Of a stretch of 59,653 bases of DNA, positions 8,197-14,877 are shown piece after piece (position 1 is the first letter of the stretch; each line of letters begins with the position of its first letter). Origin of the DNA: Cystobacterineae bacterium (GTDB taxonomy: Bacteria; Myxococcota; Myxococcia; Myxococcales; Myxococcaceae); the NCBI GenBank assembly GCA_009782175.1, contig WRKR01000014.1:1-59653 (forward strand), in the 5' to 3' direction. The translations under genes were made by a program, and so were the position numbers. The notes beneath the pieces were generated by a model. The model was not told the origin of the DNA, did no database searches, and saw only the letters and a list, made by a program, of their open reading frames with translations.

Positions 8197-9534
8197 ATGA
8201 GTATGGAAAATAAAAAACAATTGCAGCCTGCGGAAGGTCGATTGGCTGTTTTGACGCCTGGGTTGGGAGCGGTTTCTACCACATTTATGGCGGGTGTTGA
8301 GCTGCTCAAAAAAGGAGCAGGCGAACCCATTGGCTCTGTGACGCAAATGGGGACTGTACGTTTGGGCAAGCGCACGGATGAGCGCACCGTATGCATAAAG
8401 GAGCTGGTGCCGCTGGCAGATGTGTCCAACCTTGTTTTTGGCGCATGGGACATTCGCGGGGAAAACGCGGCGGAGGTGATGCAGCGCTCTGGAGTATTAT
8501 CCGAGGCGGACATGGGCAAAGTGCGCGCGGAGCTTTCGCACATAAAGCCCAAGGCTGGCGTACACAACCCTGACATGGTGCGCCGCATTGAAGCAAACCA
8601 CATCAAAAAGACGCGCCACCACAGAGAAAGCATTGAAGCTTTGCGTCAAGACATGGCTGACTTCAAAAAGGAGCTCAAAGCGGACAATGCCGTCATGGTT
8701 ATTTGCATGAGTGTAGAAACCTACCATCCACCTTCGGAGAACCTCTTAACACTGGCCTCTCTGGAGAAGGCTTTGGATGCCAACCATGAGGACATTAACC
8801 CCACCTTGCTTTATGCCTATGCCGCGCTGCAAGAAGGCATTCCCGTGGCGAATGCGACGCCCAACAACAGTGTCAACTTAGAGAGTTTGCAAGAGCTTGC
8901 GCGGGAGCGTGGGTTGCCCATTGCGGGCAGGGACTTAAAGAGTGGGCAGACGATGATGAAGACGGTTATTGCCCCTGCGTTGAAGGCGAGGTTATTGGGG
9001 TTGAATGGCTGGTTCAGCACGAATATTTTAGGCAACCGGGATGGCGAAGTATTGGATGATCCGGCTGCGTTTAAGGCCAAAGAGGTGACGAAGGCGGGGG
9101 TGTTGCAGTCCATTTTGCAACCGGAGCTTTATCCAAAGCTTTATGGTGAGGTGCACCATAAAGTTTCCATCCACTATTATCCTCCGCGCGGTGATGCGAA
9201 GGAGGGATGGGACAACATCGACATTTTTGGGTGGTTGGGCTACCCCATGCAGATTAAAGTCAACTTTTTGTGCAGGGACTCCATTTTGGCCGCTCCCCTG
9301 GTTTTGGATATTGCATTGTTGTTGAATTTGGCGCACCGGATGGGGTGGAAAGGCATTCAGGAGTGGATGAGCTTTTTCTTTAAGACGCCCATGGCGAAGA
9401 AGGGATTGCCCGTGGAGAACGATCTCTTTATTCAGCAAACAAAGCTCAAAAACACCTTGCGGGCCATTGCTGGCGAGCTCCCCATTACCCATTTGGGGTT
9501 AGATTATTATGGGGATGATCTGCCCATTCCTTAA
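8197..9534 (+). CDS. ino1: myo-Inositol-1-phosphate synthase
   Basis: A 445-residue NAD-dependent enzyme that cyclises glucose-6-phosphate to inositol-3-phosphate (also written 1L-myo-inositol 1-phosphate), the committed step to inositol lipids. Seen: an N-terminal dinucleotide-binding region with TPGLGAVSTTFMAGV, LVFGAWDIRGENAAE, then NATPNNSVNLES, GRDLKSGQTMMKT, NGWFSTNILGNRDG and VSIHYYPPRGDAKEGWDNID. These follow the order in the bacterial/archaeal Ino1 family. ATG 8197 is chosen (second ATG 8203); the upstream frame is only the 13-bp repeat tract. The next gene starts 2 bases after the stop. It heads the lipid cluster and supplies its headgroup. Confidence 0.93.
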   Translation: MSMENKKQLQPAEGRLAVLTPGLGAVSTTFMAGVELLKKGAGEPIGSVTQMGTVRLGKRTDERTVCIKELVPLADVSNLVFGAWDIRGENAAEVMQRSGVLSEADMGKVRAELSHIKPKAGVHNPDMVRRIEANHIKKTRHHRESIEALRQDMADFKKELKADNAVMVICMSVETYHPPSENLLTLASLEKALDANHEDINPTLLYAYAALQEGIPVANATPNNSVNLESLQELARERGLPIAGRDLKSGQTMMKTVIAPALKARLLGLNGWFSTNILGNRDGEVLDDPAAFKAKEVTKAGVLQSILQPELYPKLYGEVHHKVSIHYYPPRGDAKEGWDNIDIFGWLGYPMQIKVNFLCRDSILAAPLVLDIALLLNLAHRMGWKGIQEWMSFFFKTPMAKKGLPVENDLFIQQTKLKNTLRAIAGELPITHLGLDYYGDDLPIP

Positions 9535-9536
9535 CC

Positions 9537-10415
9537 ATGCTCCCCTATTTCATCGCCTCCATTGCGCTTGGCCATTTTGTTTGTCTCTGGAGCATAGGAG
9601 ATTTGCGCTGGGAGCATGTGGCCGCAGATGCATTGCTGTTTGCCACAGCCTTTCTCCCGGCCAAATGGCGCCACTTCATGCGCTCCGCTTTTGCGCTGTG
9701 GCTTTCTGGCATGCTGTTTGATACCCAGCGTTATTTTATTGAGGCATTGCGTGGCCCCATCCACACGGGAGATTTTTGGCGCTTAGAGCAAAGCTGGTTT
9801 CCAGCCATGCTTGGCGACAAACAAACCATTTGGCCTGAATTTTTCTTAAAGCATTCTTCTGCCGCATTGGATTTGTTTTGCGGATTCTGCTATATGGCAT
9901 ACTTACCGGCTTTTTTTACCATATTCATTGTCCTGCTTTGGAAAACCCGTCCTCGTGCTGAGCTTTTGGCATGGGCATTTTTGCTGACGAACACCATAGG
10001 AGTTATTACATATGTTGTTTTTCCCCTGGCTCCTCCTTGGTACATTTTAGAATATGGCCCAGGCCCCGCCCAATTGTCCGTTCCGGGGAGTGCTGCTGGG
10101 GCAGCGCGTTTTGACTTGCTTTTAGGCATTTCCTATTTTGAGCAGTTTTATTCGCGCTCTCCCAATGTTTTTGGAGCGATGCCTTCTTTGCATATGGCAT
10201 ACCCCATATTGGCAACTTTGGCTGTTTGGGAAAGGGGATGGAGTTGGCGCCTTATTTGTGGTTTATTTGCCATTTCCGTGGGCTTTAGCGCTGTATACCT
10301 GTCTCATCATTACATTTTAGATGTTTTGGCTGGAGTGGTTGCAGGTGTTTTAGGTTGGTATGGGGTGAAGTTAGTCTCTTCCTTTATGCAGAGGCGCCCG
10401 GGCTTGTTGCATTGA
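9537..10415 (+). CDS. AUR1-like PAP2 membrane enzyme, candidate inositol phosphotransferase
   Basis: A 292-residue multi-pass membrane protein of the PAP2 superfamily. The motifs LAPPWYI, FGAMPSLHMAYPI (about 210-225) and SHHYILDVLAG (about 255-265) match the pattern of AUR1/inositol-phosphorylceramide synthases and their bacterial relatives. They are unlike the KX6RP-type phosphatase pattern. By family knowledge it could transfer phosphoinositol from phosphatidylinositol to ceramide or a related lipid, with the two His residues catalytic. Encoded 2 bases after ino1, so coupled expression is likely. Alternative: a lipid phosphate phosphatase acting on phosphatidylinositol phosphate. Substrate is inference. 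Confidence 0.8.
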   Translation: MLPYFIASIALGHFVCLWSIGDLRWEHVAADALLFATAFLPAKWRHFMRSAFALWLSGMLFDTQRYFIEALRGPIHTGDFWRLEQSWFPAMLGDKQTIWPEFFLKHSSAALDLFCGFCYMAYLPAFFTIFIVLLWKTRPRAELLAWAFLLTNTIGVITYVVFPLAPPWYILEYGPGPAQLSVPGSAAGAARFDLLLGISYFEQFYSRSPNVFGAMPSLHMAYPILATLAVWERGWSWRLICGLFAISVGFSAVYLSHHYILDVLAGVVAGVLGWYGVKLVSSFMQRRPGLLH

Positions 10416-10531
10416 AGCATTTTGAAGAGAAGAAGCTCCCCAAGCCTTCCCCTTTGGGGGTTGCCAAGGGGGGGCAAGCCTTGGGTGTTGAGGCATTTGA
10501 AGAGGAAGCATAGAGGAAGAGGAGAACCCAT

Positions 10532-11785
10532 ATGTGGCAGACATTTATGGCGTGGCTTAGCGGAGATTTAAGCCAAGATGCGAGGATATGGACAGCGCTG
10601 GCGCCTGCCGTATTAGCTGCGGCATATTTTATTATAGGGCTTGTTGTTTTTTCCATACGTTGCCTTTTTGTCGGCATCCTCAAAGACTCAGAAACAGAAA
10701 AACGGGGAGCCTCCGTGTTGGTAGGCATGTTTTTGAGACACTATTTCTTTTGGGTTATTTACCCTTTGAGTTGGTTGGTGCTGCGCTCGGGCTTGCCGGC
10801 CAATGCCATAACCACTTTGTCCGCGCTGATAGGCATGGGCAGTGGTGTTGCTGTTGCGGCGGGTCGTTTTGCTTTGGGCGGGTGGCTTTTTTTGTTTGCG
10901 GGAATTTTGGATACTTTGGATGGGCGTTTGGCAAGAATGCGAAAGACAGCCAGCCTGGAGGGGGCTGTGTTGGACAGCATTTTAGACCGATATGTTGACG
11001 GGGCTTTTCTGGTAGGGTTGGCCTGGTATTACCGGGACACGTGGGTGCTTTTTCCTGTTTTGGCAGCTTTGCTTGGAACGAGTTTGGTGCCTTATGTGCG
11101 CGCCAAAGGAGAGGGTTTGGGCGTTGAGTTAAGGGGAGGCGTCATGCAGCGGCTTGAGCGCGTATTGTTTTTAGGAGGAGGCGTCGCCTTAGCCCCCGTA
11201 TTGGAAGCTATTTATAACCCTGACTTGGCCAGGCCTCCACACATGTTGGCCATTGCTGGAATTATTTTCGTAGCTATTTTCAGCAACATAACAGCCATTA
11301 CACGGTTGAGAGATCTGCTTTTGGCTTTAGCGCCCAAGTCCGCTTTTCTGTCGAAGAAAAACTTTCCCCATTGGTATATTTGGGGCACAGTGACGGCAGC
11401 CATTGCAACCGCTGTGGATTTTTTCTCCGTATTTGGGGCCGTGGAGCTATTGGCTTTCAACCCCGTCTGGGCAACCGCCATGGGTTGCTGCTTCGGCGCG
11501 GCCGTGAATTTCAGCCTCAACCGCTGGATTGTATTCAGGAGCAAGGATTTTCTGGTTGCTCAACTCAACAGATATATATTTACCAGTGCCATGAGTGCGG
11601 CGTTGAATGCTTTTGGTCTTTATTTAATATTGTTGTTGCCCAATGCGAGTTATTTGTTTGCATGGTGGTTGGTTCGGTTGCTTGTATTTTTGTCATGGAA
11701 TCTCCCAACGCAGAAGAATTATGTTTTTGTGCCGCGTCAACCCACGACGCAACCCACGACGGAGTGTTCTTCAGGTTGTGTTTAG
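10532..11785 (+). CDS. CDP-alcohol phosphatidyltransferase fused to a GtrA-like membrane domain
   Basis: A 417-residue integral membrane protein with two families in one chain. The first half contains the complete CDP-alcohol phosphatidyltransferase signature D-x2-D-G-x2-A-R-x8-G-x3-D-x3-D near residues 126-152 (DTLDGRLAR ... GAVLDSILD). This motif binds metal and CDP-diacylglycerol. The second half (about 280-405) has a four-helix GtrA-like domain, ending FLSWNLPTQKNYVF, typical of GtrA proteins linked to lipid-sugar translocation. A strong AGAGGAG sits 7 bases before ATG 10532. Beside ino1, it most likely makes phosphatidylinositol phosphate (or PI) and perhaps flips it. Headgroup choice and flipping are inference. 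Confidence 0.85.
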   Translation: MWQTFMAWLSGDLSQDARIWTALAPAVLAAAYFIIGLVVFSIRCLFVGILKDSETEKRGASVLVGMFLRHYFFWVIYPLSWLVLRSGLPANAITTLSALIGMGSGVAVAAGRFALGGWLFLFAGILDTLDGRLARMRKTASLEGAVLDSILDRYVDGAFLVGLAWYYRDTWVLFPVLAALLGTSLVPYVRAKGEGLGVELRGGVMQRLERVLFLGGGVALAPVLEAIYNPDLARPPHMLAIAGIIFVAIFSNITAITRLRDLLLALAPKSAFLSKKNFPHWYIWGTVTAAIATAVDFFSVFGAVELLAFNPVWATAMGCCFGAAVNFSLNRWIVFRSKDFLVAQLNRYIFTSAMSAALNAFGLYLILLLPNASYLFAWWLVRLLVFLSWNLPTQKNYVFVPRQPTTQPTTECSSGCV

Positions 11786-11856: not shown

Positions 11857-14328
11857 TTGGCGGCACCTCGTTGGATGAAGTTTTTAAATGAGCAATTAGG
11901 CAAACTTGCAAAGCTAAGCTTTAGAAGGCCCTGGTTGTTTTTGTCTCTTGCGCTTGTTTTGAGTATTTTGGGTGGTTTTGCTGCCTATCGTCTCAGTTTA
12001 AGTGCAAACTTGGTTGAGTTGTTGCCTCCTTCTTTTCAGAGTGTTCAGGACTTAAAGCAATTGGAAAAAGAGTTTGGGGGAATGGGGTGGGTTGTGGTTT
12101 TGGGTGAAGGCGCGACTTCTGACAAACTCATTCAATTTTCTGAAGACTTGGTACCGCTGCTTGAAAAGCTTCCGGATGTTTCTTTTGTGGACCACCAAAG
12201 ACCGGCGCGTTTCTTTTCGGAGCATGCGCTCTATTATCTTCAAAAGGAAGATCTCACGGAGATTTTGAGGCGTTTAGAAAGCCACAAAAGAGAAAAAGTC
12301 AAAAAAGAAAACCCCTTTCTCATTGAAATTGACGAGACTGAAAAGGCAGAACCTTCAGACATTTCAGACATTGAACCTGCTTTGGATTTTTCAGATATTT
12401 TTGAAAAATACAAAAACTTAGGCGTTGAAAGGTTTGCGAAGCAACTCAACACAGCTCAGGGTCTGGATGATTATTATTTGGACAAAGAAGCAAAGAAAAT
12501 AGCTGTTTTAGTGAAGCCTAAAGGTTTCAGCGCAAACCTTGGGTTTGCAAAGCACATTTTAGAAGAAGTGGAAAAAACAGTTAACACTTTGGATTTGAGT
12601 CAATATGGCGCTGACTTTCGCGTGACATATACGGGAAGCCATAAAAAGAAGATAGACCAACAAGACCAAATAGCCAGGGATATTGGGCTGACATCCGGCA
12701 TTGCAGCTGTGATTTTGCTCCTCTACCTTGTTTATTATTTTCGAAGCTTGTGGGCGGTTGCCATTGTTTTTGCGCCTTTGGGCATAGGGCTTGTTTTCAT
12801 ATATGGTTTGGTTGGTTTAACCTATGGGCAAGTGAATTTGTTGACAGGCTTTTTGGGAGCCATTTTGGGGGGTTTAGGGATTGAGCATGGAATCCATTTG
12901 TTGACGAGGTTTTTTTCGTTCAACAACCAGGGAGGCAACTGGGAGGATTCTATTTTTGAAACATTTTGCCACACGGGTGGCTCTGCTTTAATTGCTGCAT
13001 TTGTTGCCGCACTCACATTTCTTTCTTTGGGGTTTAGCGAGTTTCGGGCTTTTCATGAATTTGGCGTCATCGCGGCTTTTGGAATGCTCTTGTTGGTTAT
13101 TTCCTATTTGGTTTTTCTTCCGGCATTTTTGAGCATTTTAAAAAAGCTAGGCTGGAAGGGGCCAAGGCTGAAGCATGAAAAACAAGTGGAAAATTCAACC
13201 CGAGAAGCGCGTTTCCGTTGGCTAGAAATATCAAGCCCCTATTGGAGTGTCTTTTTTATATTGCTGTGTGTGGGAAGTTTATTTTTCTTGAAGGATTTAA
13301 GTTTTGATTATGACTTTTCTTCATTGGAAGATCAAAACCTCCCTTCATTTGTGTTAGATAAAGAAGTGAACAAAATAATAGGATATTCACAGACACCTGT
13401 GGTTGTCCTCACAAACTCTTCAGAAGATGAACAAGCTGTGGTTCGCACCCTCAAAGAAAGAAAAGAAGCGAAGGGCGCTGATTCAGGTATAGACTTTGTT
13501 GGAGCCATTTCTGAGTTGCTTCCTGAAGAGCAAGCGGAGAAATATGCCATCCTTCAGAAAATGGTTGATTTTTTTGAAAATGTGGAGGTGTCCACCCCTT
13601 TGCCGTTTGAACAAAAACAGTTGCATGCAAAACCCTTCACGCTGGAAGAGCTGCCCAACTCCATCCGTCAGCAATTTTCTGGAAAAACGGGCGGAACACA
13701 TGTGCTCATCTATCAATCCATTAGTTTTTCCGACGGCAAAGGTATACAGAATTTTTCAAAAGAAGTCAGAGGTTTGGAGTTGCCTTCGGGTGAGCACATT
13801 TCAGCTGCCGGCGAGCCCTTAATTTTAGGGGATATTTTAGACATGGTTTCCAAAGAAGGCCCTTTCGTCTTGCTTGGAGCCATTTTGGCTGTCACCTTGG
13901 CCATGTGGCTTTCTTTGGGAGGACTGAAAGAGTCCCTTTTGTGCCTTATTCCCTCTTTGGCCTCTGTGTTTTGTTTGATTGCATTCATGTCTGTTTTTGG
14001 AATAAAATTTAATTATTTAAATATTTTGGTTTTGCCCACCATTATTGGTTGCACCGTTGATGCAGGTGTTCATTTTGTTTCACGGTTAAATGAGCCGGGA
14101 GAGAAATTTTCAACAGCCTATTTTGAGACAGGAAAAGCCATTTTTGGCGGGTTGATGACAAGCATTGTAGGTTTTGTTGCTTTAATGTTAGCCAAACACC
14201 CGGGGTTGAACTCTTTGGGAATGTTATCCATTTTGGGCCTCTTCATCAATTTAATTATTGTTTTGTTGATATTTCCGGCATTTTTATTGTTGGCCCCAAG
14301 GTTTAAGCCTCGAGGAAAATCCACCTAA
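11857..14328 (+). CDS. RND/MMPL-family exporter
   Basis: An 823-residue transporter with the two-fold RND layout. TM1 (WLFLSLALVLSILGGFAAY) is followed by a large outside domain, then a six-helix bundle (about 275-430). The second half repeats this (about 455-480, outside domain, bundle 665-815). The bundles carry the paired motifs GGLGIEHGIHLLTRF and IGCTVDAGVHFVSRL; the second holds the Asp typical of proton-relay helices in MMPL proteins. Start TTG 11857 has GAGGAG 6 bases upstream; ATG 11875 is the alternative. It lies inside the lipid cluster and the next gene begins right after its stop codon. It is a good candidate to export the lipid made by the cluster, by inference. Hopanoid-type cargo is another option. 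Confidence 0.85.
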   Translation: MAAPRWMKFLNEQLGKLAKLSFRRPWLFLSLALVLSILGGFAAYRLSLSANLVELLPPSFQSVQDLKQLEKEFGGMGWVVVLGEGATSDKLIQFSEDLVPLLEKLPDVSFVDHQRPARFFSEHALYYLQKEDLTEILRRLESHKREKVKKENPFLIEIDETEKAEPSDISDIEPALDFSDIFEKYKNLGVERFAKQLNTAQGLDDYYLDKEAKKIAVLVKPKGFSANLGFAKHILEEVEKTVNTLDLSQYGADFRVTYTGSHKKKIDQQDQIARDIGLTSGIAAVILLLYLVYYFRSLWAVAIVFAPLGIGLVFIYGLVGLTYGQVNLLTGFLGAILGGLGIEHGIHLLTRFFSFNNQGGNWEDSIFETFCHTGGSALIAAFVAALTFLSLGFSEFRAFHEFGVIAAFGMLLLVISYLVFLPAFLSILKKLGWKGPRLKHEKQVENSTREARFRWLEISSPYWSVFFILLCVGSLFFLKDLSFDYDFSSLEDQNLPSFVLDKEVNKIIGYSQTPVVVLTNSSEDEQAVVRTLKERKEAKGADSGIDFVGAISELLPEEQAEKYAILQKMVDFFENVEVSTPLPFEQKQLHAKPFTLEELPNSIRQQFSGKTGGTHVLIYQSISFSDGKGIQNFSKEVRGLELPSGEHISAAGEPLILGDILDMVSKEGPFVLLGAILAVTLAMWLSLGGLKESLLCLIPSLASVFCLIAFMSVFGIKFNYLNILVLPTIIGCTVDAGVHFVSRLNEPGEKFSTAYFETGKAIFGGLMTSIVGFVALMLAKHPGLNSLGMLSILGLFINLIIVLLIFPAFLLLAPRFKPRGKST

Positions 14329-14877
14329 ATGCACGCTGAGCTGCAGACAAAACCCAATTATTTTTGGAAAATTTTGGCAAAGCGCGGCTATGCCATGTGG
14401 CTGAAACTGCAAGCCCAACCCAACATCAACCCCATTCGGCCATTTTTGTGGCTGGGTGGGGCATATAACCCAAAGCAATTAACTGCCTTATATAGACAAG
14501 GCATCCGAGCCATTGCTGATTTGAGAGCAGAGCATGCTCAACCTTCTTTTATATCCACCTATCCACAGCTCCATTTTCGCCGCTTTCCTATCTCTGACAG
14601 AAAAGCTCACACCCAGGAAGAGCTGCTTCAAATTGTGCTTTGGGTTTTAGAACAAACAAAGCGACATTGTCACACATTGGTGCATTGTCAGCATGGAATT
14701 GGCAGAGCGCCTTTGGTTGTTGCTTGTGTTTTGTTGACAGAAGGTTTAGAAGCTTCTAAAGCACTTTTAGAACTAGAGTGCCTACGTTGGCAAGTCCGTA
14801 TGAACAAAATTCAATTGCGTGCGCTTCAAGAATTCTCAAACACATGGATGAGATTCTTAAATAACAGCAATGTATAA
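14329..14877 (+). CDS. Dual-specificity/PTP-like phosphatase, candidate lipid-phosphate phosphatase
   Basis: A 182-residue cysteine phosphatase. The active-site loop VHCQHGIGRAP fits HC-x5-R exactly, and an upstream PISDRKAH provides a likely general-acid Asp. DLRAE resembles the start of dual-specificity phosphatase cores. ATG 14329 follows the exporter stop codon directly (TAAATG), so the two are co-translated. PTP-fold enzymes such as mitochondrial PTPMT1 dephosphorylate phosphatidylglycerophosphate. In this context the attractive substrate is phosphatidylinositol phosphate, the product expected from the CDP-alcohol enzyme. A protein-tyrosine phosphatase role is also possible. Confidence 0.82.
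   Translation: MHAELQTKPNYFWKILAKRGYAMWLKLQAQPNINPIRPFLWLGGAYNPKQLTALYRQGIRAIADLRAEHAQPSFISTYPQLHFRRFPISDRKAHTQEELLQIVLWVLEQTKRHCHTLVHCQHGIGRAPLVVACVLLTEGLEASKALLELECLRWQVRMNKIQLRALQEFSNTWMRFLNNSNV

Follow-up and report, generated by a model that had tools for sequence, protein, structure and literature searches.

The DNA analyzed here (hereafter the window) is a stretch of 59,653 nucleotides from a Cystobacterineae bacterium, in which a run of forward-strand genes has the order ino1, PAP2, fusion, MMPL and dual-specificity phosphatase. The fusion gene (10532-11785) starts with ATG and encodes 417 amino acids in one unbroken frame. The initial annotation, made from the letters alone, had read it as a CDP-alcohol phosphatidyltransferase joined to a GtrA domain, and both assignments hold. 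Residues 90-213 match the Pfam family PF01066 CDP-OH_P_transf (2.3e-13, 51.3 bits, cut-off 22), and the complete CDP-alcohol signature Dx2DGx2ARx8Gx3Dx3D lies at residues 127-152 in this half (10910-10987, + strand; D127-TL-D130G-RL-AR-x8-G144-AVL-D148-SIL-D152, with the letters DTLDGRLARMRKTASLEGAVLDSILD), its residues being invariant among 38 relatives. The GtrA assignment had been made dependent on a profile search of the C-terminal half, which it survives: residues 290-399 match PF04138 GtrA_DPMS_TM (4.2e-9, 37.1 bits, cut-off 26.1) over profile positions 7-117 of 117.

An AlphaFold model of the full chain, built from 38 homologues, has a mean pLDDT of 90.4 and combines the fold of phosphatidylinositol-phosphate (PIP) synthases (PIPS) with that of the membrane domain of dolichyl-phosphate-mannose synthase (DPMS). 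The model begins with an extra membrane helix ahead of the synthase core (residues 15-46; 10574-10669, + strand), which relatives carry too. The synthase domain (residues 63-266; 10718-11329, + strand; delimited by PF01066 and PIPS structures) is followed by a short linker and the GtrA four-helix domain (residues 278-401; 11363-11734, + strand; delimited by PF04138 and 5mlz), whose helices span residues 280-306, 311-334, 341-367 and 374-398.

Upstream of the fusion lie ino1, for myo-inositol-1-phosphate synthase (8197-9534, + strand, start codon at 8197 or 8203; PF07994 2.8e-81, PF01658 1.2e-31), and a PAP2-superfamily transferase gene (9537-10415, + strand; PF14378 PAP2_3 1.7e-22). The PAP2 protein resembles phosphoinositol-dihydroceramide synthases (BT_1522/Aur1-like). 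Its top NCBIfam match is NF052609 PhinosDhcerSyn at 2.6e-44, short of the equivalog cut-off, and the motifs GAMPSLH and SHHYILD can be read from its sequence. A hairpin at about 10440-10490, in the gap between the PAP2 gene and the fusion, is unremarkable (fold z-score 0.30). Downstream, an MMPL/RND transporter of the HpnN/HAE3 kind (11857-14328, + strand; PF03176 5.6e-35; TIGR03480 HpnN 4.2e-88, under the cut-off) is abutted by the gene for a dual-specificity (DSP) phosphatase with the active site HCQHGIGR (14329-14877, + strand; PF00782 2.3e-10, PF22784 3.9e-12). The MMPL gene adjoins the fusion in several families, and a homologue of the phosphatase lies close to it throughout the Myxococcaceae.

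The closest relatives of the first half indicate which lipid it makes. PIP synthases are its best solved relatives in a sequence search of solved structures, and in structure comparisons residues 69-271 match those of M. kansasii, M. tuberculosis and Renibacterium at Z about 20-22 (6wmv, Z 21.6, rmsd 2.5 over 194; 5d92, Z 20.8). AF2299 and IPCT-DIPPS score Z 18.6-19.2, and phosphatidylglycerol-phosphate, serine and choline enzymes Z 10-13. In M. tuberculosis PgsA1, the positively charged inositol-phosphate pocket comprises R94, K135, R137, R152, R155 and R195 (PMC6506517). Sequence alignment places an Arg or Lys of the fusion at five of these six positions (R153, R190, K192, R207 and R210); the sixth is probably R258, where the alignment is insecure. 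The strip aligned to PgsA1 K135/R137/R152/R155, YVRAKGEGLGVELRGGVMQRLER, covers residues 188-210 (11093-11161, + strand). The retained pocket residues make PIP synthase the most likely identity of this half.

In NCBIfam the fusion scores highest against archaetidylinositol-phosphate synthase, the BT_1523 family and PIPS, but stays below the PIPS equivalog cut-offs (NF045883, 94.7 against 170; NF052561, 110 against 350; NF040950, 114 against 180), which marks it as a divergent PIPS member. Fold, catalytic motif and positively charged pocket are shared with Mycobacterium PgsA1 and Renibacterium PIPS (PDB 6h59, 6wmv, 5d92), at about 27% identity, but those enzymes have neither a GtrA domain nor the extra N-terminal helix. 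PGP synthase, PS synthase, choline transferase and DIPP synthase were rejected as identities, since NCBIfam and structure scores favor archaetidylinositol-phosphate synthase and PIPS. The position of ino1 upstream of the fusion in Myxococcaceae makes PI-phosphate, rather than PI directly, the likely product: the enzyme would join CDP-DAG and inositol-phosphate, and PI would then require a phosphatase. The initial annotation had suggested that a single chain both makes and flips an inositol lipid. The fusion itself and the making of an inositol lipid are well supported by the PIPS relatives, the retained pocket and the adjoining ino1, with the amendment that the direct product would be PIP.

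The second half (residues 277-401) most closely matches the membrane domain of Pyrococcus furiosus DPMS (5mlz, Z 10.8, rmsd 4.6, 117 residues; 5mm1, Z 10.6; 9ep0, Z 10.3), and unrelated helical matches reach at most 6.3. P. furiosus DPMS likewise joins a lipid-headgroup enzyme to a GtrA-like four-helix domain at the C-terminus, although the enzyme is a glycosyltransferase of family GT2 instead of a CDP-alcohol transferase and makes a polyprenyl lipid. The four-helix domain is also shared with Listeria GtcA, Shigella GtrA and M. tuberculosis Rv3789, but these are stand-alone proteins that work with glycosyltransferases on polyprenyl-phosphate sugars. A conserved Arg and Asn are common to all of them by motif spacing; on that measure only, R347 and N390 of the fusion correspond to R95 and N132 of GtcA, both of which are required for GtcA function.

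Overlaying the run on the inositol-lipid cluster of B. thetaiotaomicron provides a context for this pairing. That cluster comprises BT_1522 (PAP2), BT_1523 (PIP synthase), BT_1525 (PIP phosphatase) and BT_1526 (MIPS), with BT_1524, which has a GtrA motif, next to BT_1523 (PMC9246714). MIPS, PIPS, GtrA and PAP2 are all together in the window too (8197-11785), but the separate neighboring genes BT_1523 and BT_1524 correspond to one chain, and the MMPL transporter is an addition. The phosphatases also differ, BT_1525 being PgpA-type and that of the window DSP-type. No PF04608 match for PgpA was found across the whole genome of the window, which makes the DSP protein a natural candidate for the PIP phosphatase, standing in for PgpA.

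Relatives add a further component to the run. In M. xanthus, a companion gene between the fusion and the phosphatase (L061:5908-6906, strain AM003) encodes a protein with a signal-peptide-like N-terminus, and homologues occupy the same place throughout the Myxococcaceae. In a group of other lineages the companion domain is fused C-terminally to the synthase-GtrA chain, after another hydrophobic segment; on the synthase tree such chains appear at two distinct positions, one being L094 and the other the f7 group (further examples of the companion, beside or fused, are L117:10186-11280 and L094:8320-9252). Its model (pLDDT 92) shows the two-lipocalin fold known from AttH, pericyclases and related proteins (Z 19-23; against 2ich AttH, E 1.6e-11 and Z 20.7; against pericyclases, Z about 22). 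The Svf1_C profile (PF17187) reaches at best 24.4 bits in fused members, against a cut-off of 25, and leaves the M. xanthus protein unmatched. For yeast Svf1, a possible role in carrying ceramide between the ER and the Golgi has been described (PMC10583516). A search of the genome and genus of the window (G000, G001) did not find the companion.

Aur1/PgpB-type PAP2 transferases are expected to work at the outer face of the membrane. The cavities of PIPS open to the cytosol (PMC6506517), so the lipid must cross the membrane when PAP2 uses PI. The distribution of these genes among 147 genomes of the class fits such a need. In each of the 76 genomes that carry a PAP2 homologue, GtrA is joined to the synthase or lies next to it. 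PAP2 is present in 76 of the 79 synthase-GtrA genomes (the copy of G103, divided over two rows, being counted as fused) and in 0 of the 11 with a synthase lacking GtrA, a contrast that amounts to one independent change on the synthase tree and for which we therefore claim no statistical significance.

From the computed domains, folds, active-site and pocket residues, gene neighborhood and spread, we infer an enzyme product, membrane sidedness, flipping step, acceptor and phosphatase role as follows. Starting from glucose-6-phosphate, Ino1 would yield inositol-phosphate, which the N-terminal domain of the fusion would couple to CDP-diacylglycerol at the cytosolic face to give PIP. A phosphatase, probably the DSP protein, would convert PIP to PI; the C-terminal GtrA domain would hand PI (or PIP) over to the outer leaflet; and there the PAP2 protein would transfer phosphoinositol to an acceptor, for instance ceramide. 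The MMPL pump, joined in many relatives by the periplasmic AttH/Svf1-fold protein, would distribute the product. A PIP synthase whose GtrA partner domain flips PI within a myxobacterial inositol-lipid pathway is the best explanation that we can offer, and we rate its chance as a little under even.

Ceramide is an uncertain acceptor in the genome of the window, because no clear stand-alone serine palmitoyltransferase was found there; the AOS-family candidates comprise only a domain fused to a PKS and a protein with a low score. A PKS-like open frame of 2319 aa in this genome (L136, G000:C38) ends in a BioF/serine-palmitoyltransferase-type domain and may make a long-chain base. Ceramide phosphoinositol has been reported from M. 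xanthus (PMC9246714).

The enzymatic part of this explanation is strong, and the flippase part reasonable. That the GtrA half flips the lipid is plausible and accords with the GtrA/PAP2 pattern, which the flipping model predicts; this is as far as the second half of the original suggestion can be carried, as the pattern reflects a single evolutionary contrast and deletion of BT_1524 leaves PI and PI-dihydroceramide unaltered by TLC (PMC9246714). Since the PAP2 product persists in that mutant, BT_1524 is not the sole route in B. thetaiotaomicron, and a change of leaflet would escape TLC of total lipid. For the GtrA members that PMC11127046 covers, direct evidence of flippase activity is lacking.

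The same observations could be accommodated if the GtrA domain moved no lipid and were instead a structural module that anchors or dimerizes the PIP synthase or docks it to the PAP2 protein or the phosphatase, which we consider quite possible, if somewhat doubtful. Docking predicts the co-occurrence of GtrA and PAP2 equally well, and the BT_1524 deletion, with no lipid phenotype, sits comfortably with it. P. furiosus DPMS, the closest solved match of the GtrA half, keeps its membrane targeting and activity when the membrane domain is removed, the function of that domain being left open (PMC5526996), and for Rv3789 a role as an anchor that recruits AftA has been put forward (PMC7389260). However, a pure anchor would not obviously need R347 and N390, the residues matched by spacing to functionally required ones in GtcA, and the 11 genomes with the synthase alone indicate that GtrA is not an obligate anchor.

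GtcA and GtrA belong to polyprenyl-phosphate-sugar pathways (PMC7389260), and the GtrA domain might accordingly, as is proposed for canonical GtrA proteins, carry another lipid, such as a polyprenyl-phosphate sugar used to modify the inositol lipid on the outer side. We think this unlikely: Pfam finds no glycosyltransferase within the run in the window, and the fused CDP-alcohol enzyme suggests that the cargo is that enzyme's own product. In its favor, genes for an aminotransferase and an oxidoreductase adjoin the synthase/GtrA pair in some relatives. The aminotransferase is class-III-like (L049, L050, L051, L124, L107-L109, L115, L117, L118 and L121), and some of these loci add a GFO/IDH/MocA-like oxidoreductase, both being named by reading their sequences; they possibly point to aminoinositol or another modified head group.

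The spread of the fusion was followed by tblastn and profile searches. It was found in 19 of 60 relatives, and the survey of ino1 proposed in the initial annotation shows ino1 in all 19 fusion genomes (18/41 of the others); in 14 of these 19, at most 3 kb separates it from the fusion. Named genome records contribute 80 loci, 60 of them with both domains in one frame, from taxa that include Myxococcus xanthus, Corallococcus, Pyxidicoccus, Hyalangium and Polyangium; the nearest relative is in the MAG Co191P4bin16 (86%). Across the class, 70 of 147 genomes have the one-frame fusion (in one case with a stop inside the frame), and in 8 of 147 the synthase and GtrA are neighboring genes. This recurrence of the same single frame is more than chance. 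The halves do occur as separate genes in some relatives, but that faulty annotation or assembly created the fusion, or that two genes are neutrally read through, is hardly credible and is refuted by the one uninterrupted frame kept in 70 genomes of many genera, M. xanthus among them; the well-folded single AlphaFold model also speaks against it. The fusion is thus real and conserved, a new arrangement of known parts.

Fused rows do not form one clade. In the synthase tree they fall into two groups divided by well-supported branches, and constraining them to one clade is rejected (p-AU 0.019); in the GtrA tree the second fused group again lies beside unfused neighboring GtrAs. The synthase and GtrA were therefore joined at least twice, or joined and then split again, and are found together either way.

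No paper on a fusion of GtrA with a CDP-alcohol phosphatidyltransferase was found in the open-access library searched. We tentatively extend the flippase reading to the whole pathway, in which myxobacteria would build inositol-phospho(cerami)de lipids by means of a PI flippase within the PIP synthase, pass PI to a periplasmic Aur1-like PAP2 protein, and pass the product or ceramide to a Svf1-like lipocalin and an MMPL pump. If true, this would be a bacterial counterpart to the yeast ceramide/IPC route, with GtrA acting on a glycerophospholipid and not a polyprenyl lipid. It bears on the passage of newly made phospholipids across the inner membrane of bacteria and on the true function of GtrA proteins; BT_1524 has no known role despite the characterized inositol-lipid cluster around it. 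The fusion ties GtrA to one defined lipid and offers a clear point at which making the lipid can be separated from moving it, and its presence in the genetically tractable M. xanthus makes the lipid-moving idea easy to test.

Some individual copies deserve mention. The GtrA half is the faster-evolving one, and in one fusion (L014:1495-2718; L096 is the same contig) it falls under the Pfam cut-off; this half is degenerate there (24.3 bits) and has lost the conserved N and F positions. A 1408-aa open frame (L052:7720-11946, - strand) contains a GtrA domain close to its C-terminal end but otherwise matches no Pfam family. Four records titled Comamonas, Dadabacteria, Bdellovibrionales or Rhizobiales (L056, L080, L089 and L116) yet hold myxobacterial-type copies and are possibly mislabelled or mixed; L056 adjoins Myxococcus xanthus in the synthase tree.
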